From contig NC_010581.1 in assembly GCF_000019845.1 (NCBI RefSeq), positions 558,001 to 622,000 of the forward strand: a DNA stretch of 64,000 nt, written 5' to 3'. Both the position numbers and the translations under genes were made by a program. The stretch comes from Beijerinckia indica subsp. indica ATCC 9039 (GTDB taxonomy: Bacteria > Pseudomonadota > Alphaproteobacteria > Rhizobiales > Beijerinckiaceae). Positions 45,905 to 63,352 of this stretch are shown piece by piece (position 1 is the first letter of the stretch; every line of letters begins with the position of its first letter). The notes beneath the pieces are model-generated. The model was given only the letters and a program-made list of their open reading frames with translations, was not told the origin of the DNA and ran no database searches.

Positions 45905-46819
45905 ATGGATAATCGTGCGGGCGAGATGCTGGTTTTCGTGCGCGTGGTGGAGGCGGGAAGCTTTTCGGAAGCGGCTCGTCAGATGCTGATGACACCCTCC
46001 ACGATCAGCAAACTGATCGCCCGGCTTGAGGAACGCCTGGGGCTGAGGTTGCTTGAGCGTTCGACGCGCCGGCTTTCGCTGACGGATGAAGGGAGGATCT
46101 ATTACGAGCGTAGCGCGGCCTTGCTTGCCGAGCTTGACGATATCGAAGGCGCGCTTGCAAAAGGGGCTCGAAATGCCGGAGGAATTGTCCGGGTCAACGC
46201 CTCCGTGGCTTTCGGTGTCTTGGGAATCGAACCGCTTCTCCCTGCCTTCTGGGAGGCCTATCCGCACATTGTCGTTGATCTCTCCCTTTCTGATGAAATC
46301 GTCGATCTCTATCTCGACCGCACCGATATTGCCTTTCGGGTCGGCGCTCTGTCCGATTCAGGCCTGATCGCGGTGCGGATCGGCGTCTGCCGGCGCCGGA
46401 TCGTGGCCTCCCCGGAATATCTCGAGCGCCATGGTACGCCTCAGACGATGGAGGATCTCGAGGGGCATAATTGCCTTGGATTCAATTTCCGAAGGGCGGC
46501 CCCTGTCTGGCCTTTCAGGGAAGGGGGCCGGATCGTCGATCGGATCCTCGCTGGCACGCTCTTGGCCAATAATGGGGAGACTGTCCATCGCATGGCTAAA
46601 GCGGGGGTCGGGCTTGCGCGGCTCGCGGATTTTCATACGCGCGCCGACATCGCTTCCGGTTGCCTGGTCGAGGTTTTGGATGGCATCGGCTATGATGACG
46701 AGGAGGAAATCCACGCGCTTTACCTTGGTGGCCAGCGCATGCCGCAGCGTATCCGCCTGTTCCTCGATTTCATGGTGCCCAGACTGCAGCAGTTTCTGCG
46801 CGGCGGGGTCAAAGAGTAA
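45905..46819 (+). CDS. LysR family transcriptional regulator
   Basis: A 304-residue regulator of the AaeR/CrgA branch: N-terminal HTH (MLVFVRVVEAGSFSEAARQM, TPSTISKLIARLEERLGLRL) and an effector domain from about residue 92 with GIVRVNASVAFGVLGIEPLL. It converges on the end of the minus-strand organosulfur operon, which makes it a plausible but not adjacent-promoter regulator of that operon. RBS GAGGAAAGG precedes the ATG. Confidence 0.9.
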   Translation: MDNRAGEMLVFVRVVEAGSFSEAARQMLMTPSTISKLIARLEERLGLRLLERSTRRLSLTDEGRIYYERSAALLAELDDIEGALAKGARNAGGIVRVNASVAFGVLGIEPLLPAFWEAYPHIVVDLSLSDEIVDLYLDRTDIAFRVGALSDSGLIAVRIGVCRRRIVASPEYLERHGTPQTMEDLEGHNCLGFNFRRAAPVWPFREGGRIVDRILAGTLLANNGETVHRMAKAGVGLARLADFHTRADIASGCLVEVLDGIGYDDEEEIHALYLGGQRMPQRIRLFLDFMVPRLQQFLRGGVKE

Positions 46820-46866: not shown

Positions 46867-47190
46867 TCAAGGCTTCAACAATTCGAAGGACTGGTCGGAG
46901 GCTCGCAGTGCGTTTGTCTCCTTGGTCCAACCAATGGCGCGTCGATAAGAGCCGAAATCGATATTGTTGTGTGACGCATGTATATCGTCAATTTGTAGCT
47001 CATCTGTAAAAGGCGCTACATAGAGGGCGTCGGCAGGACAGTAGAGCTCACACATGAAGCAGGTCTGACAGTCGCTTTGCCGTGCGATGACGGGGATGCT
47101 GTTCTTGACGGAACCGAACACATTTGTCGGGCAGACCTTAACGCAAATATTGCAGGATGTGCAGCGAGTGGGATCAATGATTTCGATCAT
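46867..47190 (-). CDS. AprB-like ferredoxin with two [4Fe-4S] clusters
   Basis: A 107-residue electron carrier. It has two cluster motifs of the CX2CX2CX3CP type: CTSCNICVKVCPTNVF (residues 9-24) and CQTCFMCELYCPADAL (about 41-56), spaced as in 2[4Fe-4S] ferredoxins and the ferredoxin part of AprB. A 45-residue tail rich in charged residues follows (ELQIDDIHASHNNIDFG), where AprB also has a partner-binding tail. Its start is 13 bp after the stop of the AprA-like gene, so it is surely that protein's redox partner. AGAAAGG precedes ATG 47190. Confidence 0.85.
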   Translation of the reverse strand: MIEIIDPTRCTSCNICVKVCPTNVFGSVKNSIPVIARQSDCQTCFMCELYCPADALYVAPFTDELQIDDIHASHNNIDFGSYRRAIGWTKETNALRASDQSFELLKP

Positions 47191-47203
47191 GGCCTTTCTC
47201 TCA

Positions 47204-48814
47204 TCATGCGTCTTGCAATGCGTGAGCGAGAACCGGACGCGTACCAGTCCAGACATCATCCAGGCCACCGGTCGTAATATAGTGGTGCTGTTTATGATCC
47301 TGATGAGGAAATTCCTCGCGGCGATGCATGCCGCGCGATTCCTGTCTCGCAAGCGCGCTCCTGTACATCCAGCGCGCTGTGGCAATCATCGCCGCACATT
47401 CTCTCGCGCGCAGAACCTGATCTCGGTCGGCGGCATCGGCATGGTTGATTGTCTGCCACAGTTTATTCAGACGGTCGAGCGATGGAACGAGTTGGTCCGC
47501 CGTTCGGAAATAGTTGCGTTTAAAGGGAAAAACTTCATCTTGGACCGCCTTGGTCGTTTCATTCGGGTTGAATGAGGCTTTGGTGCGAGATCGGAGCGCG
47601 ACGCCGCCCGCGCGAAACACTTGTCTCTTGGTCGTCGTTCCGAGCTGCTTTGCGTGGTCGGCTGCAGCGGCTCCCGCCCAATAGCCAGATGACATGGCCC
47701 AGGCTGCATTATGGCTGCCGCCGCCAGTGAAGCCACCACAGATCAGTTCGCGCGTCGCGGCGTCGCCGGCCGCGAAGAGACCGGCGACGCTTGTGGCGCA
47801 GGTCTCGTCTGTTATGCGCAATCCACCCGTCCCACGCACGGTCCCCTCGAGGAGTAAGGTAATGGGAAAACGCTGTGTAAACGGATTAATGCCGACACGA
47901 TCGAACGGAAGAAAGAAATTTGGCTGGGCAAGACGCAATGTCGCTTGCATTCCAGGCTCGACCTGATCGAGTTGGGCATAGACGGGTCCGACCATAAGGG
48001 CGCGGGCTATGGCTGAACGTCCGCCTTGCGATCCCGCCCCTGGAATGATCTCGCCATTTTCATAGGTGAAACTGGCCCATTTATAAAACAACGTTTTGGT
48101 AACGGAAGAAAAGCTGGCCGAGATGGCATAAGCATTGGAAAATTCCATGCCCGAAAGGTCGGCTCCCGCTTCCGCAGCCATGAGATAACCGTCGCCGGTC
48201 AAGAGATTGCAGCCGAGCGCCTTGCTCAAGAAGGCGCAGCCGCCTGTCGCCATGATGACCGATTTGGCGCGAACGACCCAGTTATCACCGCGTTGGCGTC
48301 GGAGTCCCGTCGCACCCGCTACGGCGCCGGTGTCATCGACCAAAAGTTCCAGCGCCGGACTATGGTCGAGGATCAGAACCGAGGCTTCCTGGGTTTGTCG
48401 CCGCATCAGGCGCATATATTCAGGGCCTTGCAAAGAATTCCGGCGGGAATGTCCGTTTGCGTCAATCGGAAATGGATAGCCGCGTGCCGCCAAGAGATTG
48501 ATGCTGTCGAAGGTCCGATCGAGGACGCGATGCATCCAGAGACGATCCTGCAGATAGCCGCCAAGCACTTCCCGACTGGCCATGGCCGCTTCGCGTTTTT
48601 CCGCATCCGCCTCGATATACCAGACGCCGGTTCCAGAGGGTGCGGTGGCGCCAGATGATCCGCAAAAGCCCTTATCGGCCAGGATCACGCGAGCGCCGCG
48701 CTCGGCAGCCGTACAGGCTGCCCAGGTTCCCGCCGGGCCGCCACCGAGGACGAGAACATCGGCATCGAACTCGACTGAGCCCGAGCCCTCACTTATGACC
48801 TCGCCACTTAACAT
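47204..48814 (-). CDS. AprA-like/fumarate-reductase-type flavoprotein
   Basis: A 536-residue FAD enzyme of the succinate dehydrogenase/fumarate reductase/APS-reductase-alpha superfamily. The dinucleotide motif VLVLGGGPAGTWAACTAAER is at about residues 20-39, followed by the flavin-stacking GFCGSSGATAPSG, SVIMATGG, and a C-terminal GLFAAGDAATRELICGGFTG. The closest look is to AprA-like oxidoreductases. ATG 48814 with GGAG upstream was chosen; TTG 48829 is an alternative. It is paired with the ferredoxin and lies at the end of the sulfatase-dioxygenase-ABC-receptor operon. A role in sulfur metabolism of the imported compound is inferred; the reaction is unknown. Confidence 0.8.
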   Translation of the reverse strand: MLSGEVISEGSGSVEFDADVLVLGGGPAGTWAACTAAERGARVILADKGFCGSSGATAPSGTGVWYIEADAEKREAAMASREVLGGYLQDRLWMHRVLDRTFDSINLLAARGYPFPIDANGHSRRNSLQGPEYMRLMRRQTQEASVLILDHSPALELLVDDTGAVAGATGLRRQRGDNWVVRAKSVIMATGGCAFLSKALGCNLLTGDGYLMAAEAGADLSGMEFSNAYAISASFSSVTKTLFYKWASFTYENGEIIPGAGSQGGRSAIARALMVGPVYAQLDQVEPGMQATLRLAQPNFFLPFDRVGINPFTQRFPITLLLEGTVRGTGGLRITDETCATSVAGLFAAGDAATRELICGGFTGGGSHNAAWAMSSGYWAGAAAADHAKQLGTTTKRQVFRAGGVALRSRTKASFNPNETTKAVQDEVFPFKRNYFRTADQLVPSLDRLNKLWQTINHADAADRDQVLRARECAAMIATARWMYRSALARQESRGMHRREEFPHQDHKQHHYITTGGLDDVWTGTRPVLAHALQDA

Positions 48815-48874: not shown

Positions 48875-51373
48875 TTACATCTGCCATCTGAGAGTAAAGC
48901 CGACGGTCATGGGCAAACCGACATTGCCCGCAGCGATGCCGGTACCGAGATTGGTTTCCGAGAGGGTAATGAAATAATGCTTATTCAAGACGTTCTGCCC
49001 CCAAACGGAGAGGTCCCAGCTTGAATCCTCGAACTTCACACCACCATGCACATTGAGCAGGCCGTAAGCTCCGATCACCGAATAGATGGAATTCGTCGTG
49101 TTCGAGAAGACAGAACTTTGCCAGTTAAAGTCGGCACCGACATATCCGATCAACGGCTTTGTAAATGGCTCCACAAGACCCAGGTGGTGACTGTATTCAC
49201 CACCGAATGCCACCGCCCAGCGCGGCACCAGTGATAGAGGTTGACCCGTGAAATTGCAGGACGTCTGATTGGACCTTTCAAAGGGGCACGGGCCGTTGTC
49301 AAAGGAGGCATAATAGGCATTATCATAAATCATCGAAGCGTAGGTATTGAGGCCTTCGAACGGCTGCGCTCTGACGTCAAGCTCGACACCGCGGGAGACC
49401 GCCCGTTGCGCGTTGGCGAGATAGGTGGAGAAGCTGGAGCCGACCAGAGAGGTGACGTTAGTGATATAATTATGATTGTTCATGTAGAAAGCAGCGACAT
49501 TGACCAGCAGGCGTTGGTCGAAAAACTGGCTTTTTAGGCCGACTTCGTAATTCTCAACTTCTTCCTCTTTGACCGTTGTGGGTGCGCCGACCGGCAGATT
49601 GGCGGGATTGGGACCACCGGGACGACCGCTGCGAGCGAAAGTCACATAACCCATCACATCGGGAGCGAATTTGTAAGATGCCGAAGCGAGCGCCGAAATC
49701 AGCCCCTGATGCGTCGAAGCCGTAAATTGTCGCGGGCTTCCGAGTAAGGTATTGCGCGCGGCCTGGGATGCCGCCTGGTCGGCAGGGCTCAAATAAGAGG
49801 TATCCCAAGCGTTTTGCCACTGTCTATAAAGGGTGGTCTTGTAGACATAGGAATAACGCAGACCAGCAGTCAGATCGAATTCAGGGTCGACATGCCATGT
49901 CGCCTGCGCATAAGGCGCAATATAGTGTGTCGTCGGATTATCATAGCTTTCGCGAGCGGTATAGTTGAGCGTATTGTTGACGGCCGCTGAGTCCGTCGGT
50001 TTGCCGTACCAGAGACCTGCCTGCGAACCATATGCGCTGAGACCCCAATTATAGAGCTGTTCATAGAGATAGAAGAGACCGGCGGTTCCTTCGACGGGCT
50101 GTCCTTTTGGGGTGGAAATCTTGAATTCCTGCTGCACCGATCGCTCTGTGACGTGACTGTTGTTGCGAGTCGTCAGATCAGTCGGAAGGCCAACGTAAAT
50201 GGCATCGCCAAAATTGTGCGGATGAAAATCCCAACCCCGAAAAGAAGTAACAGAATTAAAATGGTAACCATCTGGCAGATTGTAGTCGACGATTGCCGCC
50301 GCGCCATAACTTTCCTGAGACGTGTTTTGATAACCGAAATTATCGGTCATATAGGATGAAAGAGCGTTTGCCGGAGGCGGCGTCAACCCTATCCGTGCCG
50401 CCCGATTATAAAAATTATTGGGAATTGGTTGACCGTTTACATAATAGGCGATACCGCCATTATAAATCTGGCCGCAACAGGCTTGACTGATCTGCGCATA
50501 ATCAACGATGAAGCGCGCCGTCAAATCTTCCGTTGGTTGCCACAAGATCTGGCCACGCATGCCTTTGTCGTGGAAGTCGTTCAGCTTTTGCCCGCCGTTG
50601 TAATTTGAAACGTAACCGTCACGGTCGGAACCGAACGCAGCCAGTCGAAACGCGGTCGTGGTGCTATCACCTACCGCACCGGTGAGGCTGCCCTTGAATT
50701 GTGCCCAATTATATCGGCCATAGGACACTTCAGCCGATGCATGTGTGGCGAAACTCGGTAGAGTCGTCGTGAGGTTAACAACGCCACCAGTATTGTCCAT
50801 GCCGCCGGATGTCGCTTGTGGTCCCTTCAGGACCTCGATTCCGTCGAGATCCGGTACATCGAAAAGCGCTTGACCGACACGTGGTTGCAGGATGCCATCG
50901 ATATAGACGGGAACACCGTTGAAGATGCCGTCGGTCGCGCTGGAGGAAGATGCGCCGAAGCCGCGTATATTGATAGATAGGTTACGAACATTGGTAAAAC
51001 GGATGCGTAAACCGGGCTGTAGCCTTTGAGCGTCCAACACATTGCGGACCTGAGCGGCGTCGAGCTGCTGCTTGGTGATGATCGTTGATGAGGATGGTAC
51101 GAATTGACGCTGTGTCGCTTGTTGCTTCGAGAACGCCTGTTTATCGGTATCCGGTGTCGCGATACCCGTCACGACGACATCCTGTAATGTCGCTTCATTT
51201 GCGGAGCTCTCTTGCGTCTTTGCCGCACTCATTGTCGCGATATACAAGCAGAATGTTAAGCAGCTGAAATGGACCGGATGGCCTCCGCGGAACATGCCAA
51301 CGGAAATCGCTTTTGAATTTTCCGTGTGAAAAAGAAAACGGAAAGGCTCAGTCGTGGGGGCTTTCGAAGTCAT
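48875..51373 (-). CDS. TonB-dependent outer-membrane receptor
   Basis: An 832-residue receptor. After a signal region (CLTFCLYIATMSAAKT) comes a plug domain with the TonB-box-like TLQDVVVTG, SSTIITKQQLDAAQVRNVLD, and LSINIRGFG, GVPVYIDGIL, DLDGIEVLKGPQAT. It continues into a long beta-barrel rich in aromatic strands, ending VGLPMTVGFTLRWQM. It should import a scarce substrate across the outer membrane using TonB. The neighbours suggest an organosulfur compound instead of a siderophore. An in-frame ATG at 51295 lies just before the hydrophobic segment. The 3' end is 60 bp before the AprA-like gene. Confidence 0.92.
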   Translation of the reverse strand: MTSKAPTTEPFRFLFHTENSKAISVGMFRGGHPVHFSCLTFCLYIATMSAAKTQESSANEATLQDVVVTGIATPDTDKQAFSKQQATQRQFVPSSSTIITKQQLDAAQVRNVLDAQRLQPGLRIRFTNVRNLSINIRGFGASSSSATDGIFNGVPVYIDGILQPRVGQALFDVPDLDGIEVLKGPQATSGGMDNTGGVVNLTTTLPSFATHASAEVSYGRYNWAQFKGSLTGAVGDSTTTAFRLAAFGSDRDGYVSNYNGGQKLNDFHDKGMRGQILWQPTEDLTARFIVDYAQISQACCGQIYNGGIAYYVNGQPIPNNFYNRAARIGLTPPPANALSSYMTDNFGYQNTSQESYGAAAIVDYNLPDGYHFNSVTSFRGWDFHPHNFGDAIYVGLPTDLTTRNNSHVTERSVQQEFKISTPKGQPVEGTAGLFYLYEQLYNWGLSAYGSQAGLWYGKPTDSAAVNNTLNYTARESYDNPTTHYIAPYAQATWHVDPEFDLTAGLRYSYVYKTTLYRQWQNAWDTSYLSPADQAASQAARNTLLGSPRQFTASTHQGLISALASASYKFAPDVMGYVTFARSGRPGGPNPANLPVGAPTTVKEEEVENYEVGLKSQFFDQRLLVNVAAFYMNNHNYITNVTSLVGSSFSTYLANAQRAVSRGVELDVRAQPFEGLNTYASMIYDNAYYASFDNGPCPFERSNQTSCNFTGQPLSLVPRWAVAFGGEYSHHLGLVEPFTKPLIGYVGADFNWQSSVFSNTTNSIYSVIGAYGLLNVHGGVKFEDSSWDLSVWGQNVLNKHYFITLSETNLGTGIAAGNVGLPMTVGFTLRWQM

Positions 51374-51756: not shown

Positions 51757-52587
51757 TTATCCCGCATGCATCATTGTGGGCAGATTGGTTCCAGCTCCGG
51801 CTGATCGCGATGGGTTTTTGATGTGTTCTCCAAGCTTGATCAGGATGGTCTCGCGCAGATGCACAAAGCTTGGATGCGTTCTGTTGCGTTCTGCATCCAT
51901 CAGCGTGATGGGGACGATATCTGCGATTCGGCCTGGATGGGGATGCATGACCACGATGCGATCTCCGAGAAAAATGGCTTCCTCGACATCATGCGTAACG
52001 AGGACTGTGGTGATCTTTTCCTCTTGCACGATACGCTGAAGTTCATTTTGCATATGTGCTTTCGTCAAGGCATCAAGCGCGCCGAAAGGCTCGTCGAGTA
52101 ACAGAATGCGTGGACGCGTCACGAGGGCGCGTGCGATCGCGACGCGCTGCGCCATGCCACCGGAAAGTTGAGCAGGCAGGGCATTCGCAAAATCCTTGAG
52201 GCCGACCAGTTCGATGTGTTTCGCGATGGTCTTTTGTTTTTCCTGGGTGGATAGACGCGATTTGATCAGGCTCAGGGCAATATTCTGCTCGGCGGTCAGC
52301 CAGGGAAACAAACGTGCTTCTTGAAAGACAATCGCGCGATCAAGGCTGGGCGTCGTCAATTTGTGACCATCCAGAAAAATATCGCCGCGCGTGGGTTGAT
52401 CAAGACCAACGATCAGTTTCAGCAAGGTTGATTTGCCGCAGCCCGATGCACCGACGATGGAAACGAATTCATTGGGCGCGATCGACAAGGATATATTTCG
52501 TAAGGCCGTGAATGTGCCGCCAGGAAGGTTGAAATCCTTATCGATAGCGTGAATGACGAGGCCATGAGCATCGAGGTCGTGGGTCAT
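51757..52587 (-). CDS. ABC transporter ATP-binding protein (SsuB/TauB type)
   Basis: A 276-residue ATPase. Walker A VGASGCGKSTLLKLIVG (about residues 42-58), signature LSGGMAQRVAIARAL (about 141-155), and Walker B ILLLDEPFGALDAL (about 161-174) are all intact. It energises the two permeases upstream in the operon for import of a sulfonate or sulfate ester. Its start overlaps the permease stop as ATGA. The C-terminus is extended by about 20 residues of low complexity. Confidence 0.93.
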   Translation of the reverse strand: MTHDLDAHGLVIHAIDKDFNLPGGTFTALRNISLSIAPNEFVSIVGASGCGKSTLLKLIVGLDQPTRGDIFLDGHKLTTPSLDRAIVFQEARLFPWLTAEQNIALSLIKSRLSTQEKQKTIAKHIELVGLKDFANALPAQLSGGMAQRVAIARALVTRPRILLLDEPFGALDALTKAHMQNELQRIVQEEKITTVLVTHDVEEAIFLGDRIVVMHPHPGRIADIVPITLMDAERNRTHPSFVHLRETILIKLGEHIKNPSRSAGAGTNLPTMMHAG

Positions 52588-53384
52588 TGTGCAGAGGTCT
52601 TTCGCCAGGAAAGAACATAAGTTTCGACATGAAGCGCGGCATTGTTCAGGAGGACGCCAATGCTGGCCAGGAGTATGACACCGAGAAGAACCAGGTCCAT
52701 TTCGAATTGTTCACGTCCCGCGATCATCATTCCGCCAATGCCGGGACCCGCCGTCATGAAATATTCGGCACCGATCGTGGCGAGCCAGGAATGGATGAGC
52801 CCAAGATGCAGGCCCGTGAAAATTGAGGGTAACGCAGCGGGGATGGCAAGGCGCGTCAGAAAGGACCATGGACTGAAATCGAGCACCTTGGCGACTTCGA
52901 TATAGGGGCGAGGAATCCCGGCCATGCCGGTCAGCGTATTGACCAGGCACGGTGTAAAAGCCGCAATCGCGATGAAGGCTATTTTGGCCGCCTCGCCAAT
53001 GCCGAACCAGACAGAGACCAGCGGGATCCAGGCAAAGATCGCAATCTGTTTGAGGGCATCGAAAGTCGGTTTGATGAGGTGACGCAGGAGCGATGACAGG
53101 CCCAGAAGGATTCCAAGCGATGTGCCGAGCATGGCACCAAGAGCAAATCCGAGCAGATCGCGCGTGAGGCTCGCGGCAATGTCGCGTGGCAGCCGGCCCT
53201 GAGCGAATTCCTCTCCGCCGCGTTTGACGAGTGTTTCGAGAGGCGGCAGCAGTTTGGGGCTGACGAGTTCGAGATGGCTTGCGGTCTCCCAGACAAGAAG
53301 CACCAGAAGTGGCAAAACGAGCCGGCGCGCGAGAAGAATGGAAGCCCTGGTCGGTAAGGTCGGTGCGGCGAAATGCACGCTCAT
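52584..53384 (-). CDS. ABC transporter permease (SsuC type), second of pair
   Basis: A 266-residue inner-membrane protein with about six transmembrane helices and the BPD-transporter EAA loop (PYIEVAKVLDFSPWSFLTRL, then IPAALPSIFTGLHLGL). ATG 53384 overlaps the stop of the upstream permease as ATGA, the best-supported start; an ATG 18 bases upstream is also possible. It likely forms a heterodimeric channel with its neighbour. Confidence 0.9.
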   Translation of the reverse strand: MSVHFAAPTLPTRASILLARRLVLPLLVLLVWETASHLELVSPKLLPPLETLVKRGGEEFAQGRLPRDIAASLTRDLLGFALGAMLGTSLGILLGLSSLLRHLIKPTFDALKQIAIFAWIPLVSVWFGIGEAAKIAFIAIAAFTPCLVNTLTGMAGIPRPYIEVAKVLDFSPWSFLTRLAIPAALPSIFTGLHLGLIHSWLATIGAEYFMTAGPGIGGMMIAGREQFEMDLVLLGVILLASIGVLLNNAALHVETYVLSWRKTSAQ

Positions 53385-54241
53385 CGGGAAAGGGTCCGCC
53401 ATGACAGAAGATGGCTTTCGATCAATTGCAATCCGCGATCGAGCAGAAAGCCGATGGTCCCGATCACGATCATGGCCATGATGACGACATCGAGCTGAAA
53501 GAGCTGGCGTCCCCAGACCGTGAGATAGCCGAGCCCTTCCGCTGAAGCGATCAGTTCGACTGCGACCAGCGCCAGCCATGCATTGGTCAACCCATAGCGT
53601 ATGCCGGAAAAAATATCGGGCACTGCGGCGGGCAGGATAATGTGCCGCAACATGGGTTTAAGGTCGAAGGTCAAAACCCTGCCGACTTCGAGATAGCTCT
53701 TTGGAACATTATGCAGGCCACGCTGGGTATTGACCGCCACAGGGACAAGGGCGGCCTTGGCGATGACCAGAATTTTCAAGGTCTCGCCTATGCCGGCGAC
53801 AAGCATGAGAAGCGGGACCCAGCCGATGGCCGGCACTTGGGCAAAAGCCAGAAAGAAAGGCGAGACAATATCTTCGACCACGGGGGAAAGACCCATGGCA
53901 ATGCCGAGAATGAGACCCAGGCTCGCGCCGACGCTGAAGCCCGCCGCGATCCGCCACAGGCTGTAAGAGCAATGTTGCCATAATTCCCCCGACGCCCAAT
54001 AGTCTTGGAAGGTTTCGATGACCAGGGAAGGGGCCGGCAGGATTTGCTCTGGCAAGGTTCCAAGACGCGCCAGAATGGCCCAGAGGGCGAGCAGAGCGCC
54101 TGGCAGGAGAAGACCGAGAAGGATTTTTCCGTTTAGACGCCTACCGATGCCGTTTACCACCGATCGGAACGGAACCGTTTCTTTCGTCCGCGTCCTGACA
54201 CTCTGACGCCCGACCGGGTGTGCGATCTGGAGATCTGTCAT
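53381..54241 (-). CDS. ABC transporter permease (SsuC type), first of pair
   Basis: A 286-residue permease with about six transmembrane helices: LLGLLLPGALLALWAILARL at the N-terminus and the EAA loop SYLEVGRVLTFDLKPMLRHI, then LPAAVPDIFSGIRYGLTNAW. GGAG lies six bases before ATG 54241. It is related to but distinct from the next permease; known SsuC and TauC systems use one permease gene, so a two-gene heterodimer with a single ATPase is notable and recalls the double-domain permease of sulfate-ester transporters. Confidence 0.9.
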   Translation of the reverse strand: MTDLQIAHPVGRQSVRTRTKETVPFRSVVNGIGRRLNGKILLGLLLPGALLALWAILARLGTLPEQILPAPSLVIETFQDYWASGELWQHCSYSLWRIAAGFSVGASLGLILGIAMGLSPVVEDIVSPFFLAFAQVPAIGWVPLLMLVAGIGETLKILVIAKAALVPVAVNTQRGLHNVPKSYLEVGRVLTFDLKPMLRHIILPAAVPDIFSGIRYGLTNAWLALVAVELIASAEGLGYLTVWGRQLFQLDVVIMAMIVIGTIGFLLDRGLQLIESHLLSWRTLSR

Positions 54242-54354: not shown

Positions 54355-55464
54355 CTATTGCGTGACGATGGGTTGGCCTGCCGCATCATTGGGCGTCCAA
54401 TAATGGTCGAGCCCGAGGTCTTGAAGAGCTTGTTTGAGATATTTCGGCTCGAACCAACCGTCGACCGTGGTCGTATTCCGCAAAAGCCGATAGGCTTTTG
54501 CCTCGTTGATCTTTGTTGCATAGGCTGCAACCAGAAAGTCGTCGATCAGGGGGGATAGCCGCGATTTCAGAGGGACGTCCTGGAAATCGGCGCGAAAGAT
54601 CTCAAGGGGATAGCCGGAGCGCCCCCATATTTCATAGAGTGCGTCGCGGTGGTTTTCATCCGAGGCCCAGGCCGCTGCCTTGACCCAACTTTTGATAATG
54701 CGCGCGGTAATCTCTGGATGCGCCTGCTCGAAATCTTCCGTAACGAGCACATGAGAATGGCGTGTAAAGCCGAGATCATCGCCCTTGGTGGAATAAATGA
54801 TTTTGGCGATGCCTTTTTGTTCATAATCGATGAAATCCGCTTGGCCGAAAGCGGCATCTATGTCGCCACTGGCGAGTGCCGCTGCTGTCGTGCCAACGTC
54901 CATATTGATGAACTTGATGTCGGTTTCCTTTAGGCCATGCGCCGCCAGAATTTTATCGACGGGGATTTGCATGTTCGTGCCGCGAAATTGCGCGACCTTG
55001 CGGCCCTTCAGATCTTCGATTGTCGTTACGCCGGATTTCGAGGCGACCGCCAGATAGATATTGGCGCGCACGTCATTGGCGGCGAGAAGCTTGGTTTTGA
55101 GACCATTGGCACGCCCGATAATCGCCGGCAGATCGCCTTGCATCGCGAAATCGAGCTGCTTGTTGACGAGTGCCTCGTTGACTGCGGGGCCAGCGCCCTT
55201 GAAGAAAAACCATTCGATCTTGATGTCGGGATCGTTTTTGAATTCTTCTTCCAGATAATGTTCGGAATGAAGAACGGCGATCGTGCCGGAGCCGACAAAT
55301 TGGCGGTTGCCGACGCCAGTCGCGGCCACCCCGATGCGTATGGTTAGCGCTTCGGCGGCGTTCATTGAGGCAAAAAAGAGCGCCAGGAGAATTATGCTTG
55401 GAAGAAGGGTCGAAAAGACGCCTCCTCGCTTATGCCCGAAGCCTCGTCGATTGTGGATAGGCAT
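54355..55464 (-). CDS. Sulfonate/sulfate-ester-type ABC substrate-binding protein
   Basis: A 369-residue exported protein: signal LLPSIILLALFFASMNAAEA, then LTIRIGVAATGVGNRQFVG, KNDPDIKIEWFFFKGAGPAV, NKQLDFAMQGDLPAIIGRAN, LKGRKVAQFRGTNMQIPVDK and ALASGDIDAAFGQADFIDYE. This is the SsuA/AtsR pattern. It is the binding component for the two permeases and ATPase that follow, with a spacer of about 110 bp before the first permease. Confidence 0.9.
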   Translation of the reverse strand: MPIHNRRGFGHKRGGVFSTLLPSIILLALFFASMNAAEALTIRIGVAATGVGNRQFVGSGTIAVLHSEHYLEEEFKNDPDIKIEWFFFKGAGPAVNEALVNKQLDFAMQGDLPAIIGRANGLKTKLLAANDVRANIYLAVASKSGVTTIEDLKGRKVAQFRGTNMQIPVDKILAAHGLKETDIKFINMDVGTTAAALASGDIDAAFGQADFIDYEQKGIAKIIYSTKGDDLGFTRHSHVLVTEDFEQAHPEITARIIKSWVKAAAWASDENHRDALYEIWGRSGYPLEIFRADFQDVPLKSRLSPLIDDFLVAAYATKINEAKAYRLLRNTTTVDGWFEPKYLKQALQDLGLDHYWTPNDAAGQPIVTQ

Positions 55465-55603: not shown

Positions 55604-56542
55604 TCAAGCCGCTATGCTTGGGCTTCCTTGCACGCGTTCGCGGCTGCGTTGGCCATCAACAGAGACCGGGACCTCGCCAGCAATTGTCGTTCGGCGCACG
55701 ATGCGCGGCTGATCATCATAATCATCGACGGCGCGATGCAAGGTAGCGCGATTGTCCCAGATCGCTACATCGCCGACCGACCAGCGCCAGCGCACGGTAT
55801 TTTCCGGGCGCGTTGCATGATCATGCAGAATGCTGATGATCCGCTGTGAGTCGGCCGTTCCAAAACCGGTGATACGTTTCACGAAATGACCGATGATGAG
55901 CGAGCGCTTGCCGGTTTCCGAATGCACATGCACGAGCGGATGTTCGGCCTCGTAAACGGTCGAAGTGAAGATCTGTTTATACCGCTTTATGGCGCTTTCC
56001 GGTATATTGCCGCCGCGATCACCGACATAATCATATTCGTTGCTATGCACGGCCCAAAGCTTGTCGATGAAATCGCGAAAGACTTCCGGCAATTCTTCAT
56101 AGGCGGTTTCGGTGTTGGACCATGTCGTATCGCCACCGCGCTCAGGCACCACATGACCACGCAGAATGGAGATTTTGGGATAAGCAGCGCGGAATGTCAC
56201 ATCTGTATGCCAGGAGCTAGCGCGTTCGCCGCGCGCGCCATCCAGTTCGAGAATGGCCTGTGTGCCCTCGAGGGATGGCACCGTCGGATGCGGGACGAGA
56301 TCACCGAGAAGACGGCCAAAGCTTTCTTGTTCCACATCTGTCAGATGAGTCTGGTTGCGGAAGAAAATCACTTTATGCCGCAACAGAGCCTGACGGATAG
56401 CGGCGATAATGCTGGGCTGCAAAGTTGATGAAAGCGTGACGTTGGAAATTTCAGCGCCGATACGGCCGCCAACATGATGAATGTCGAGGTCGGGGATGGG
56501 CGCGTTTTCATGCTTCGGGAGAACCACTGTTGCCAGAGTCAT
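55604..56542 (-). CDS. Fe(II)/2-oxoglutarate dioxygenase, AtsK/TauD family
   Basis: A 312-residue non-haem iron oxygenase that would cleave the C-O or C-S side of an alkyl sulfate or sulfonate, releasing sulfate or sulfite and an aldehyde. The facial triad is visible: His112 and Asp114 in SSWHTDVTFRA, and His269 in DNRATLHRAVDDYDDQPRIV, with Arg in RRTTIAG for 2-oxoglutarate. The segment WAVHSNEYDYVGDRGG resembles alkylsulfatase AtsK more than TauD. Neighbouring sulfatase and binding protein support a sulfate-ester substrate. Confidence 0.88.
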   Translation of the reverse strand: MTLATVVLPKHENAPIPDLDIHHVGGRIGAEISNVTLSSTLQPSIIAAIRQALLRHKVIFFRNQTHLTDVEQESFGRLLGDLVPHPTVPSLEGTQAILELDGARGERASSWHTDVTFRAAYPKISILRGHVVPERGGDTTWSNTETAYEELPEVFRDFIDKLWAVHSNEYDYVGDRGGNIPESAIKRYKQIFTSTVYEAEHPLVHVHSETGKRSLIIGHFVKRITGFGTADSQRIISILHDHATRPENTVRWRWSVGDVAIWDNRATLHRAVDDYDDQPRIVRRTTIAGEVPVSVDGQRSRERVQGSPSIAA

Positions 56543-56746: not shown

Positions 56747-58207
56747 TTAATCATCGCGGCGCATCGCCCGAAGAGGCGCGGGATTGTCAGGTTCTGTGGT
56801 TGGTGCGGTCACGCCATAGTGATCGGCAAGTTCGTGACCCGTGAAGCCGTGCGTAAAGCTCTCAGTGATTTCGGGTAGCATAGTGCTGTTCCACTCGAGC
56901 CATTCGGCGAGAAGGCGATTGTAAATATCTTTGTGGCGCTCTTTCAGATTGACGCGTTCCAGCGGATCATCGACCACGTTGAAGAGAAAATCATTGTCCC
57001 GGATTTTGAGATATTTGTAATCGCCATCGCGCACTGCGCGCTGGGCATTGGCTTTGTAGCGCCAGAACAATTTGCGAGGGATAGCGGCTTTGCTTTCGCT
57101 CAGGAAAGGCAGCAGATTAATCCCGTCGGAGGGAAAATTTGGATCGGGTTCGCTCCCAGCGGCCGCTAAGAGAGTCGGCAGCCAATCCATGCTGATGCTG
57201 ACCTGATCGATGGTTTGATCTGCTTTGATCCGCGCCGGCCAAGAGACGAGGGCAGGGATGCGCAATCCGCCTTCGAGTAGTTCCGTCTTACGGCCGGTAA
57301 ACGGCCATGTATCGGCAAAACGCTCACCGCCATTATCGCTTGTGAAGATGACAATCGTATTCTCGCTGATCCCATTGGCTTGCAGAGCCTGCACAATGCG
57401 CCCGATTTGGAGATCCATCGCTGCGATCATGCCGCGATAGGTCGCTTGTGATCCGCCATCGAAGTCGAACAGGCGCGTCCCTGCCACACGCGCGGATTCC
57501 GCTTCATCCCCGGGCGCTTCCCAGGGCCAATGGGGCGCATTGAAATGCAGGCTGATGAAGAAAGGCTGGCCGGTTTTGGCTGAAGCGTTGATGGTTTCGA
57601 TGGCGCGGTCGCCGAGCAATTCCGTCAAATAACCGGTTTGGTGAACCTTTGTATCTTGATCCCACAGATCGTCCTGATCATCGGTGCCTTTGTGTGAATA
57701 ATAATCGACGGCACCGCCGCGAAAGCCGTAGAAATGATCATAGCCGCTTTGCAGTGGGCCGAAGTCCGGCAATGTGCCGAGATGCCATTTACCGATGAGA
57801 GTCGTGGTGTAACCTGCTTTTTTCAAAAGCGAGGGCAAGGTCGGGCGCTGCGGTGGCAGGCCGACATGGATATTGCCGGCGATCGGCTCCTCAAGGCCCA
57901 CCCGCTCGCGATATTGATAGCGGCCGGTGAGCAAAGCCGTCCGTGTCGCCGAGCAGACAGCGGAATTTGCGTAAGCCTGAAGCAAACGTGCTCCCTTGAG
58001 CCCGATGCCGTCGATATTAGGTGTGGAGAGATCGGGCCGTCCATAAATGGAAACATCCGCATAGCCGAGATCATCGGCAAGGATGAAGATAATATTCGGC
58101 GCTCTATCACCCGTTGCAGGCCGTGCGATCTGGGGCAAAGAAGTAACAGTCGCTGCCGCCGTTCCGATGAGCAGATTGCGGCGGTTGAAAGAAAAGAGAC
58201 CGGGCAT
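56747..58207 (-). CDS. Periplasmic type I sulfatase (arylsulfatase family)
   Basis: A 486-residue sulfatase. N-terminal Tat-like signal FNRRNLLIGTAAATVTSLPQ. Calcium-site residues are in NIIFILADDLGYADVSIYGR. The formylglycine motif is CSATRTALLTGRY (about residues 81-93), with Cys oxidised by the aerobic formylglycine-generating enzyme; Ala instead of Pro at the third place is accepted by the family. GKWHLG, HFNAPHWPWE and FTSDNGGERF complete the site. It hydrolyses a sulfate ester to free sulfate in the periplasm. It is the first gene of the minus-strand run and divergent from the MFS gene. Confidence 0.93.
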   Translation of the reverse strand: MPGLFSFNRRNLLIGTAAATVTSLPQIARPATGDRAPNIIFILADDLGYADVSIYGRPDLSTPNIDGIGLKGARLLQAYANSAVCSATRTALLTGRYQYRERVGLEEPIAGNIHVGLPPQRPTLPSLLKKAGYTTTLIGKWHLGTLPDFGPLQSGYDHFYGFRGGAVDYYSHKGTDDQDDLWDQDTKVHQTGYLTELLGDRAIETINASAKTGQPFFISLHFNAPHWPWEAPGDEAESARVAGTRLFDFDGGSQATYRGMIAAMDLQIGRIVQALQANGISENTIVIFTSDNGGERFADTWPFTGRKTELLEGGLRIPALVSWPARIKADQTIDQVSISMDWLPTLLAAAGSEPDPNFPSDGINLLPFLSESKAAIPRKLFWRYKANAQRAVRDGDYKYLKIRDNDFLFNVVDDPLERVNLKERHKDIYNRLLAEWLEWNSTMLPEITESFTHGFTGHELADHYGVTAPTTEPDNPAPLRAMRRDD

Positions 58208-60435: not shown

Positions 60436-61086
60436 TCAAGCGCCTCCGACAAGGATGACATGCAGAAAGCGCGGACCATGCGCGCCTTTCACGAGCTGGC
60501 CTTCGATATCGGTGGTACCGCTGGCGCCCGTGACGAAATTGACATTGCGCGGGATCGGCTGTCCAGTGGCCGCTTGCACATAATCTTCGAGATAGCCAAG
60601 GATGCGCGCGGCCTCGATGATGACAAGATGATGCAGCGGAAAGAAATCGAACAAAGTGGGTGAATGTGGGCCCGAATGAAAGATCAATGTCCCGGTTTCG
60701 GCCACACCCCAGAGCGCCTTGCCAACGGCGACCGGCGTATCCGACTTGACCTCCGCATGGAGTGTATATCCCGCCCAGTCGAGGCTTGTGAGAAAGGGAT
60801 CCGGCTGTAAAGCGATCTCTTTCGCAAGCCCCTGGGCTTTGAGATAACGATCGACGGCTTCAGGCACGTCGCCGGGCGTCGCGGCTTTATCGAGGCTTGC
60901 TCCGATCTTGGGAGACGTGAGCCTCTGCTCGAATAGGACGGGCAGGGCGCCTGCATCGAGAGCGGGCCGGCCGATGGCGGGATCGGCGACCAAGGTTTGG
61001 GCTTCCGCGAGGATCGTCGCGTCCTTTTCGGGCTTTGTGATAGTTGTTTGCCGGATACGGGCCAGAATGGCGTCGCGCGCGCTCAT
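60436..61086 (-). CDS. lutC: L-lactate utilization protein LutC (YkgG family)
   Basis: A 216-residue subunit of the LutABC L-lactate dehydrogenase. The LutC fold (LUD domain) is seen in ALWGVAETGTLIFHSGPHSP, LFDFFPLHHLVIIEAARI and PRNVNFVTGASGTTDIEGQL with GAHGPRFLHVILVG at the end. Its ATG overlaps the lutB stop as ATGA. The longer upstream frame is not conserved. Confidence 0.92.
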   Translation of the reverse strand: MSARDAILARIRQTTITKPEKDATILAEAQTLVADPAIGRPALDAGALPVLFEQRLTSPKIGASLDKAATPGDVPEAVDRYLKAQGLAKEIALQPDPFLTSLDWAGYTLHAEVKSDTPVAVGKALWGVAETGTLIFHSGPHSPTLFDFFPLHHLVIIEAARILGYLEDYVQAATGQPIPRNVNFVTGASGTTDIEGQLVKGAHGPRFLHVILVGGA

Positions 61087-62549
61087 GCCTGTGACCTCGC
61101 TTTCTTGTTTTGATGCTGTTTCCATTCTTCCATGAAGGTCCGCGGCGCGGGTTTCGGAAAATCGCGATAGCGCGTCCAGCCGGAGGCCAGCGGCATTGAA
61201 CTGATCCAACCCTGTTTGGCGAGGAGCCGCATGCCGCGCACGGCTATGGCGGTGCCGAGCCGATAGAGAAAGGGGTGGCGGGCGCCAAAGGACCAAAGAC
61301 CGAGGGATTGGCGCACGACTTGTGGCTCGAGCCCCTCGCGCCAGCTTTTTTCGCGCCAGCCACGGAGCAAGGTCGGCAAGGGAATATCGACCGGGCAGAC
61401 TGCCTGGCAATTGCCATTCAAAGTACAGGCTTCAGGAAGATCATGGGCCTTGTCGAGCCCGTCGAGCACCGGCGTGATCACAGAACCCATGGGGCCTGGA
61501 TAAGCGCCGCCATAGGCATGGCCGCCGATCTGGCGATAGACCACGCAATGATTCATGCAGGCTCCGCACCGCAGGCAGCGCAGCATCTCCTCAAGACCCT
61601 CGCCCAGCATTTTGGTGCGGCCATTATCGACGAGGACGATATGAAATTCCTCTGGTCCATCGCGATCGCCGGGCCGTTTGGGGCCACAATGGAAAGTTGT
61701 ATATTGAGTGAGATCCGCGCCGGTCGCCGAGCGCACAAGAAGACGCAGCAGCACCAAGGCATGCGGCATCGAGGGCACGAGCTTTTCAATGCCGGCGGTG
61801 ACAATATGGACGCGCGGAATTGTCGTGGTCAGCTCGGCATTGCCTTCATTGGTGACGGTGCAAATGGCGCCCGTATCCGCGATGAGGAAATTGGCGCCGG
61901 AAATGCCGACATCGGCGGCAAGGAAACGGCCGCGCAATTCCTCGCGCGCGCTCGCGACCATGGATTCGATATCGTCGCTGTTTTGCGGCCGATGATGATG
62001 AGTGCGAAACAGTTCGGCGACTTCCTCGCGGGTCCGATGCAAAGCCGGCCAGATGATATGCGAGGGCCGGTCATGGGCGAGCTGCACGATATGTTCGGCA
62101 AGATCGGTCTCGACGCGGGTAATGCCCGCCTCTTCGAGAGCATGCGGCAGGCCGATTTCCTCGCCGAGCATGGATTTGGAGCGGGTGACGCTTTTGGCGC
62201 CGGCCTTGCGGCAGAGATCGACGACAATGGCACAAGCCTCGTCGCTGCTTGAGGCCCAATGGACCTTGGCGCCGGACCGTATGGCATTGGCTTCGAACTC
62301 GACGAGATAATGGTCGAGATGGCTGATGACATGATCCTTGATGCGTTTACCAAGATCGCGCGCCTGTGCGAAGCCCGGCCAGGAAGCGACCGCCGCCGCG
62401 CGTTTCACGCGTGCTGTATTCGTCGTGCGATCGATGGCGATTTTCAGGCTTTTGTTGTCAAGCGCCTCCCGGACGCGTTCGTCGAAAGGAATGGCGAAAG
62501 GATTGTCCGCGCGGGATGAGGTCGCGGACTCTGGATGCGTGAGGCTCAT
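61083..62549 (-). CDS. lutB: L-lactate utilization iron-sulfur protein LutB
   Basis: A 488-residue protein with an N-terminal LUD domain (ISGANFLIADTGAICTVTNE) and a C-terminal ferredoxin-like domain with cluster ligands in LRCLRCGACMNHCVVYRQIG (about residues 333-352) and CTLNGNCQAVCPVDIPLPTL. It transfers electrons from lactate oxidation together with LutA and LutC. It begins five bases after the lutA stop. Confidence 0.95.
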   Translation of the reverse strand: MSLTHPESATSSRADNPFAIPFDERVREALDNKSLKIAIDRTTNTARVKRAAAVASWPGFAQARDLGKRIKDHVISHLDHYLVEFEANAIRSGAKVHWASSSDEACAIVVDLCRKAGAKSVTRSKSMLGEEIGLPHALEEAGITRVETDLAEHIVQLAHDRPSHIIWPALHRTREEVAELFRTHHHRPQNSDDIESMVASAREELRGRFLAADVGISGANFLIADTGAICTVTNEGNAELTTTIPRVHIVTAGIEKLVPSMPHALVLLRLLVRSATGADLTQYTTFHCGPKRPGDRDGPEEFHIVLVDNGRTKMLGEGLEEMLRCLRCGACMNHCVVYRQIGGHAYGGAYPGPMGSVITPVLDGLDKAHDLPEACTLNGNCQAVCPVDIPLPTLLRGWREKSWREGLEPQVVRQSLGLWSFGARHPFLYRLGTAIAVRGMRLLAKQGWISSMPLASGWTRYRDFPKPAPRTFMEEWKQHQNKKARSQA

Positions 62550-62554
62550 GGAAC

Positions 62555-63352
62555 TCAGCCCTCCTCGCCAATGGCCGGGCCGGAGCCCATGCCGGCCAGA
62601 ATTTCGGCGGTGTGAAAGGTGCGTGTCGCAGCGCCCCGCCGGTGCAGCTTGCCGGCCATGTTCAACAGACAACCGAGATCGCCGCCGAGCAGGAGGTCAG
62701 CTTTGGTGTCCTCGATATCGCGCGCTTTTTCATCGACAATGGCATTGGAAATGGCGGGATATTTGACGCAGAACGTGCCGCCGAAACCACAGCAAATGTC
62801 ATGACCGGGCAGCGGCGTGAGGCTCAGACCCTCGACGGAGGCCAGAAGCGCGCGTGGTTGCGCCTCGACGCCGAGCTGGCGCAGGCCGGAACAAGAATCG
62901 TGGTAGGTCGCGCTGGTGTGCAAAGTCACGCCCTTCGGCCTGAAACCGCGCACATCGACAAGAAAACTGAGCAATTCATAGGTGCGGGCGGCCAAGGCTT
63001 CCGCGCGTTGTTGCCAGGCGGGATCGCCCTGGAACAAGGGAGGATATTTCTTGATCATGCCGGCGCAGGAGCCGGATGGCACGACGACATAATCAAAGGA
63101 TTCAAACCCGGCAATGACATTGCGGGCCAGCGCGCGGGCATGATTGTCATCACCCGAATTATAGGCCGGCTGTCCGCAACAGGTCTGACTTTGCGGGACA
63201 TCGACCAGGCAGCCGGCCTGTTCCAGCAAGGATATGGCGGCAAAGCCGATGCGCGGCCGCACGAGATCGATGAGACAGGTAACGAACAGACCCACCTTTG
63301 GCGTGCCGGAGGCTTGGTCCTGATGCTGATTGTGCGGGGAGGCGGCTTGCAT
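62555..63352 (-). CDS. lutA: L-lactate utilization Fe-S oxidoreductase LutA
   Basis: A 265-residue protein with two CCG domains that bind iron-sulfur clusters: QTCCGQPAYNSGD (about residues 57-69) and DICCGFGGTFCVKYP (about 185-199). VGLFVTCLIDLVRPRIGFAA at the N-terminus is family-typical. It is the first lut gene; a hairpin separates it from the lactate permease gene. Confidence 0.94.
   Translation of the reverse strand: MQAASPHNQHQDQASGTPKVGLFVTCLIDLVRPRIGFAAISLLEQAGCLVDVPQSQTCCGQPAYNSGDDNHARALARNVIAGFESFDYVVVPSGSCAGMIKKYPPLFQGDPAWQQRAEALAARTYELLSFLVDVRGFRPKGVTLHTSATYHDSCSGLRQLGVEAQPRALLASVEGLSLTPLPGHDICCGFGGTFCVKYPAISNAIVDEKARDIEDTKADLLLGGDLGCLLNMAGKLHRRGAATRTFHTAEILAGMGSGPAIGEEG

Follow-up and report, generated by a model that had tools for sequence, protein, structure and literature searches.

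In a 64,000-nucleotide stretch of the Beijerinckia indica subsp. indica ATCC 9039 genome (NC_010581.1, positions 558,001 to 622,000; here called the window), two adjacent genes encode a flavoprotein and a ferredoxin that most likely belong to the known AsfA/AsfB family and are not a new adenosine 5′-phosphosulfate (APS) reductase. The first gene, on the minus strand at 47204 to 48814 (ATG at 48814, final stop base at 47204), encodes P0001, an AsfA-like flavin adenine dinucleotide (FAD) flavoprotein of 536 residues with the Pfam domains FAD_binding_2 and Succ_DH_flav_C. After a gap of 13 bp, the second gene follows on the same strand (46867 to 47190) and encodes P0002, an AsfB-like 2[4Fe-4S] ferredoxin of 107 residues that matches the 4Fe-4S ferredoxin families of Pfam and carries two CxxCxxCxxxC motifs and the tail motif FGSYRRAIGW. 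The original prediction, made from the letters of the window alone, had given the coordinates, lengths, and spacing of the pair correctly, with no mention of the strand.

That prediction had also assigned the flavoprotein to the AprA/fumarate-reductase superfamily, which Pfam domains and fold matches confirmed. The predicted structure of P0001 (mean predicted local distance difference test score, 86.2) has the fumarate-reductase fold and matched FrdA, SdhA, 3′-phosphoadenosine 5′-phosphosulfate (PAPS) reductase, and AprA over almost its entire length. It consists of one FAD-binding fold to which the fumarate-reductase capping and helical domains are added. A Pyr_redox_2 match (residues 19 to 196, 41.9 bits) overlaps this FAD-binding part, and the Pfam and fold matches showed no further dinucleotide domain for NAD(P)H, whose binding was judged from domain content only. 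From this domain content, we judged it unlikely that AsfA is an NAD(P)H:ferredoxin reductase.

Relationship to described asf genes

The asfRABC genes are described from Pseudomonas putida S-313 and from Cupriavidus metallidurans CH34. There, as in the window, a flavoprotein gene is followed by the gene for a 2[4Fe-4S] ferredoxin, with a sulfonate-type ATP-binding cassette (ABC) transporter nearby; sequences were compared with CH34. The window pair differs from the S-313 and CH34 genes in being joined to a TonB receptor, a TauD-type gene, and a sulfatase, and its nearby LysR gene is convergent.

On the CH34 megaplasmid, P0001 matched one place only at an E value of 1e-50, with 63.8% identity over 96%. 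An AsfB-like ferredoxin gene lies directly behind this match, and genes for an amidohydrolase, a permease, an ATPase, and a binding protein are convergent with it. The CH34 genome paper names Rmet_4334/5 as AsfA/AsfB and writes the cluster asfRAB. As the PLSDB record of this replicon is unannotated at the match, we identify the match as the AsfA of CH34 by its position, not by locus tag, using landmarks in four 50-kb stretches picked where those landmarks were expected. TauD-like genes at 710,409 and 1,004,114 fit Rmet_4136 and Rmet_4409, respectively, and a gene at 722,723 fits Rmet_4148; its product (669 residues with four QW-type motifs) was called squalene-hopene-cyclase-like from motif and length only. 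Hand interpolation placed Rmet_4334/5 at ∼924 kb, and the match was found at 928.3 to 929.8 kb. Between the CH34 AsfA and the second TauD gene, we counted 72 called genes, versus 73 expected if AsfA is Rmet_4335. Directly upstream of this asfA lies a fatty-acid-desaturase-family gene (L172:6801-7832). We considered it as a possible partner oxygenase and rejected it because it had no relative in the other loci examined.

Passages of the review by Gahan and Schmalenberger describe an asf cluster made up of a binding protein, an ABC transporter, a reductase/ferredoxin, and a LysR regulator, which complements ssu. The same passages report that P. putida S-313 with an insertion in asfA can no longer use aromatic sulfonates as sulfur sources but still uses aliphatic ones. 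The original prediction had proposed an undescribed function for the pair; this did not hold, as the family has already been described as AsfA/AsfB of aromatic-sulfonate desulfurization in soil bacteria.

Comparison with APS reductase and fumarate reductase

P0001 and P0002 resemble AprBA in the AprA fold and in the combination of an FAD subunit with a 2[4Fe-4S] partner. P0001 is shorter than the AprA proteins used here (622 to 670 residues), which were taken from TIGR02061 matches (over the cut-off in 36 of 299 genomes). By blastp, the AsfA-like family is about equally distant from AprA, FrdA, SdhA, and NadB, with 22 to 26% identity over 39 to 91% of the query. We then considered a midpoint-rooted tree of 58 rows, including 50 rows of the AsfA-like family, 5 of AprA, and FrdA, SdhA, and NadB. 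P0001 fell outside AprA, in the AsfA-like family, whose branch support was 100/98; AprA was supported at 100/100 and FrdA/SdhA/NadB at 100/99. Because the root is a midpoint and the long branches of NadB and SdhA are unsure, we claim no nearest relative of the AsfA-like family.

Three APS-binding residues of AprA are missing from the 50 family members aligned. We used the residue list in the relevant section of PMC2211403 and a MAFFT alignment, in which W234 and R265 of AprA fell in gaps in 50/50 AsfA-like rows and the H398 position held V in 42, I in 7, and M in 1. N74, Y95, E141, L70, and W144 were dropped, as the AprA rows themselves lacked the expected residue in the column assigned to it; H446, placed by motif four positions off the simple numbering, was not used, and R317 and D361 were left out of the mapping. 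The ferredoxins differ as well. In the second motif, the residue following the first Cys is Gln in 108 of 109 AsfB-like ferredoxins and Glu in 1 (redundant set), versus Trp in 5/5 AprB proteins found by ferredoxin motif among 13 AprA loci, the other 8 of which gave no motif match. In our own reading of the sequences, this column would be that of AprB Trp-B48, between cluster I and the FAD. The AsfB tail has its own motif of the GSYRxxxGW type, unlike that of AprB. The ferredoxin had been predicted to have an AprB-like tail, and both the Gln and the distinct motif contradict this.

Against the AprA model NF005331, P0001 scored 60 bits (cut-off, 557). This model matched nine stretches of the B. 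indica genome, none over the cut-off, and TIGR02061 found no match there at 1e-60, as in the control genomes (0/14). ATP-sulfurylase (PF01747) had no match in the genome, while 5 of 14 control genomes matched. The original prediction had considered ordinary APS reductase work unlikely, and these data agree.

The family likewise differs from fumarate reductase, succinate dehydrogenase, and L-aspartate oxidase in having lost His and Arg residues of FrdA, and a fumarate reductase was rejected. Across the 50 AsfA-like rows, H45 and R391 are G in every row, H233 is Y in 49 and H in 1, and H356 is E in 46 and D in 4. We take the lost residues to be the FAD-linking His, the two substrate His, and the substrate Arg of FrdA, which have become G, Y, E/D, and G, respectively. 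R288 of FrdA is retained as R in 32/50 rows, and the family-specific R306, R327, and R355 are invariant in 50/50. The PAPS reductase of Methanothermococcus thermolithotrophicus (8a8o) has the same fold (Foldseek E value, 4.4e-25) and a small Fe-S beta subunit but only ∼20% identity to P0001, the comparison being one of fold.

Distribution of the family

A search of genome contigs with P0001 returned at least 595 stretches, at least 569 of them confirmed. The best 80, which were kept (62 to 71% identity), came from Bradyrhizobium and other Alphaproteobacteria, one Moraxellaceae bin, and many cyanobacteria, mostly Nostocales. Plasmids carry the family too: 59 of 72,556 records in PLSDB matched P0001 at an E value of 1e-50, with Azospirillum, Cupriavidus, Paenibacillus, Nocardia, and Pseudonocardia among the genera. 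The overall distribution is patchy, with AsfA-like proteins at 1e-70 in 11/398 genomes of a phylum sample and 10/199 of a family sample (top 3 and top 7 candidates per genome scored, respectively).

Within the tree, a 17-row set containing both P0001 and the CH34 AsfA had a support of 97/93. A second AsfA-like group of 19 rows was incompletely supported (96/77); the 31 rows outside it are called the main group, which is not itself a tested clade. The B. indica genome has another AsfA-like copy (G000:C3:3522262-3523797; 44% identity) that falls in the second group and is divergent from genes for a TauD protein, a binding protein, and a TonB-type protein (L105, L122). An operon on a Paenibacillus plasmid (L174:5388-12944) combines two AsfAB pairs with a single ABC transporter, and one AsfA falls in each tree group.

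Genes around the pair in the window and in relatives

Profile matches found the sulfatase, TauD-type dioxygenase, SsuA-type ABC transporter, and TonB receptor genes of the window as originally predicted, all on the minus strand. The gene for the TonB-dependent receptor (48875 to 51373, start possibly at 51232) is 60 bp upstream of asfA. Farther upstream are genes for an ABC transporter ATPase of the nitrate/sulfonate type (51757 to 52587), a permease of the SsuC/SaoP type (52584 to 53402, open frame extending to 53579), a permease of the SsuC type (53381 to 54241, open frame to 54256), and an SsuA-family substrate-binding protein (54355 to 55365, open frame to 55527), which scored 145 bits against TIGR01728, under the cut-off of 163.5. 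Beyond these lie a TauD/AtsK-family 2-oxoglutarate dioxygenase (55604 to 56542; PF02668, 201.6 bits; 226 bits against the taurine dioxygenase model, under its cut-off of 313) and the sulfatase (56747 to 58207; PF00884, 210.6 bits). At gaps of ≤250 bp, the run consists of the TonB receptor, AsfA, and AsfB only, the TonB receptor being separated from the ABC genes by 384 to 524 bp. On the other side, a LysR-type regulator gene (45905 to 46819, plus strand) adjoins asfB convergently; its position alone was observed. Farther away, genes of the LutA/LutB/LutC lactate-utilization type (CCG; LUD with Fer4_8 and LutB_C; LUD) occupy 60436 to 63352 on the minus strand.

In relatives, the AsfA-like gene was directly followed by an AsfB-like ferredoxin gene on the same strand in 84/97 cases (fetched loci and the window); a count that used another gene caller and a larger set of loci gave 98/117. 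The pairing is therefore not due to chance. The 19 unpaired cases comprised 15 from cyanobacteria (one of them, L043, cut by the locus end), 2 with the ferredoxin in front (L124 and L154), and 2 that had been paired in the first count (L012 and L015). Cyanobacterial copies with no adjacent ferredoxin include those of L032, L034, L038, L039, L043, L044, and L046, among others; in L032, the next gene encodes a major facilitator superfamily transporter.

We examined gene context in 47 proteins (31 main group, 16 second group) obtained at 80% identity from 119 AsfA-like proteins of >480 residues. The set leaves out the second B. indica copy, which was not called in L122, and L023, L032, and L124 give two proteins each. 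The ferredoxin was in the run in 29 main-group and all 16 second-group cases, and a complete ABC set was in the run in 11 and 12, respectively. Within eight genes, at least two ABC parts were found in 25/31 and 15/16, and a gene of the luciferase-like monooxygenase (LLM), TauD, or SfnB type was found in 18/31 and 7/16. A complete ABC set with no LLM/TauD/SfnB-type gene in the run occurred in 17/47 (7/31 main, 10/16 second). The linkage to organosulfur genes proposed for the window thus recurs, as sulfonate-type ABC genes, in several lineages. Other neighbors vary (SfnB-like, NtaA/DmoA, MetQ, amidohydrolase), and odd ones may be mislabeled because labels came from blastp to clusters annotated through single representatives.

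Some neighbors recurred outside these classes. A GroES/GroEL pair neighbors AsfAB in a number of unrelated lineages (L063, L176, and L145; also L021, L038, L039, and L044): in Ancylobacter it is directly upstream on the same strand, in Paraburkholderia and G374 it is close, and it is also found in Bradyrhizobium and Nostoc. In the nonredundant set, GroEL was within eight genes of AsfA in 3/47. It might be a dedicated chaperonin. Cyanobacterial AsfA genes (loci among L027 to L080) often neighbor an OprB-family iron-uptake porin (NF033921 in the representative, L031), whose cluster is present in 35/86 loci; perhaps it stands in for the TonB receptor. A gene resembling the MetE catalytic domain (PF01717, 38.5 bits; L124:18220-19380) ends a double AsfAB/ABC cluster.

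Co-occurrence with SsuD

Work by Kahnert in 2000 reportedly found that S-313 cleaves arylsulfonates oxygenolytically to phenols and that SsuD and SsuE are required. B. indica has an SsuD (G000:C3:2343160-2344197; 620 bits, cut-off 518.2), which neighbors an NtaA-type LLM gene, two SfnB-type genes, and ABC genes. SsuD was over the cut-off in 23/31 AsfA-bearing genomes (32 handles, with G573 and G610 taken as one). When the genomes were sorted by hand, these were 14/17 of the main group and 9/14 of the second; L026/G606 (main) and G015 (second) were placed by identity, and G091 has an additional, shorter copy that was left unplaced. In the family sample, SsuD had a background of 58/198 and was found in 6/10 AsfA-bearing genomes versus 52/188 others (one-sided Fisher P = 0.038, with kinship ignored and the samples of 199 and 198 treated as one). 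The main-group counts favor cooperation of AsfAB with SsuD, and a wholly SsuD-independent AsfAB was not borne out there. In the second group, G146 and G373 (draft assemblies, both estimated as 100% complete) had no SsuD match at 1e-30. This is no proof of independence from every flavin monooxygenase, since 7 and 3 other LLM proteins, respectively, remain.

Discussion

The best explanation, and in our judgment a probable one, is that the window encodes the AsfA and AsfB of a sulfur-scavenging cluster, with AsfA catalytic on an aromatic sulfonate together with SsuD. The TonB receptor and the SsuA-type ABC transporter would import sulfonated, possibly aromatic, compounds, and the sulfatase and TauD-type dioxygenase would handle other organosulfur substrates. 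The two [4Fe-4S] clusters of AsfB may deliver electrons to the FAD of AsfA or take them from it, a role that AprB has toward AprA. AsfA itself would bind the aromatic sulfonate, or an intermediate of its oxygenation, in a pocket where the dicarboxylate and APS residues have been replaced and which Arg306, Arg327, and Arg355 may line. Together with an SsuD-type monooxygenase encoded elsewhere in the genome, it would turn the substrate over and yield sulfite for assimilation. The redox reaction with an organosulfur compound that was first proposed from the DNA is rated likely.

Several points weigh against this explanation. AsfA need not touch the substrate if SsuD oxygenates it. No SsuD or LLM gene lies beside the window pair, and 3/17 main-group genomes have no SsuD over the cut-off (G573/G610, 407 bits; G605, 420; G606, 114). 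The CH34 pair has no LysR gene next to it, despite the asfRAB of the genome paper. The link to S-313 runs through CH34 only, where the name AsfA is an annotation and the gene was placed by landmarks. The linkage counts stand without a random-gene control.

A stronger version is that AsfAB is a catalytic desulfurizing flavoenzyme of AprBA-like architecture that acts on a sulfonate instead of APS. The second group would then be an organosulfur system in its own right, independent of SsuD and served by an ABC transporter of its own. We put this combination forward tentatively.

In the published view, AsfAB is an electron chain, from reductase to ferredoxin, that serves an SsuD-type or other oxygenase, and AsfA never binds the sulfonate. 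The review passages indeed speak of a "reductase/ferredoxin electron transport system," and the frequency of SsuD in main-group genomes and its enrichment in AsfA-bearing members of the family sample are consistent with it. However, AsfA has a fumarate-reductase-type fold with no second dinucleotide domain seen, the run of 17/47 pairs holds a full ABC set but no LLM/TauD/SfnB-type gene, and G146 and G373 have no SsuD match, though other LLM proteins are present. We therefore consider the electron chain unlikely, if still a serious contender. It is less probable again that the pair acts on some other imported compound, such as a sulfate ester, an aliphatic sulfonate, or a thioether. The sulfatase and TauD-type enzyme in the window and the varied neighbors in relatives would suit such a role, but P0001 groups with the CH34 AsfA, and the S-313 mutant phenotype in the review passages points to aromatic sulfonates. 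A true AprBA, acting as APS reductase or detoxifying sulfite by converting it to APS (a role discussed for SAR11), is rejected as scarcely credible, given the separate tree branch, the absence of W234, R265, H398, and Trp-B48, and a genome with no AprA over the cut-off and no ATP-sulfurylase.

Sulfonates, aliphatic or aromatic, are said in the published passages to be the most abundant form of organic sulfur in soils, with asfA as the marker gene for aromatic ones. We found no AsfA enzymology in the open-access literature searched (no "asf" in PMC13352529 or PMC7661421). The window pair is ordinary in identity and open in mechanism, and a specialist would recognize it as AsfAB. The AsfA-like family also occurs in cyanobacteria and Paenibacillus, which are not named in the asfA host lists of the published passages. 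As a protein of the fumarate-reductase/AprA fold with no evident NAD(P)H domain, AsfA offers a testable alternative to its "reductase" role, and both the doubt that the fold casts on the accepted role of AsfAB and the second group merit a test at the bench.
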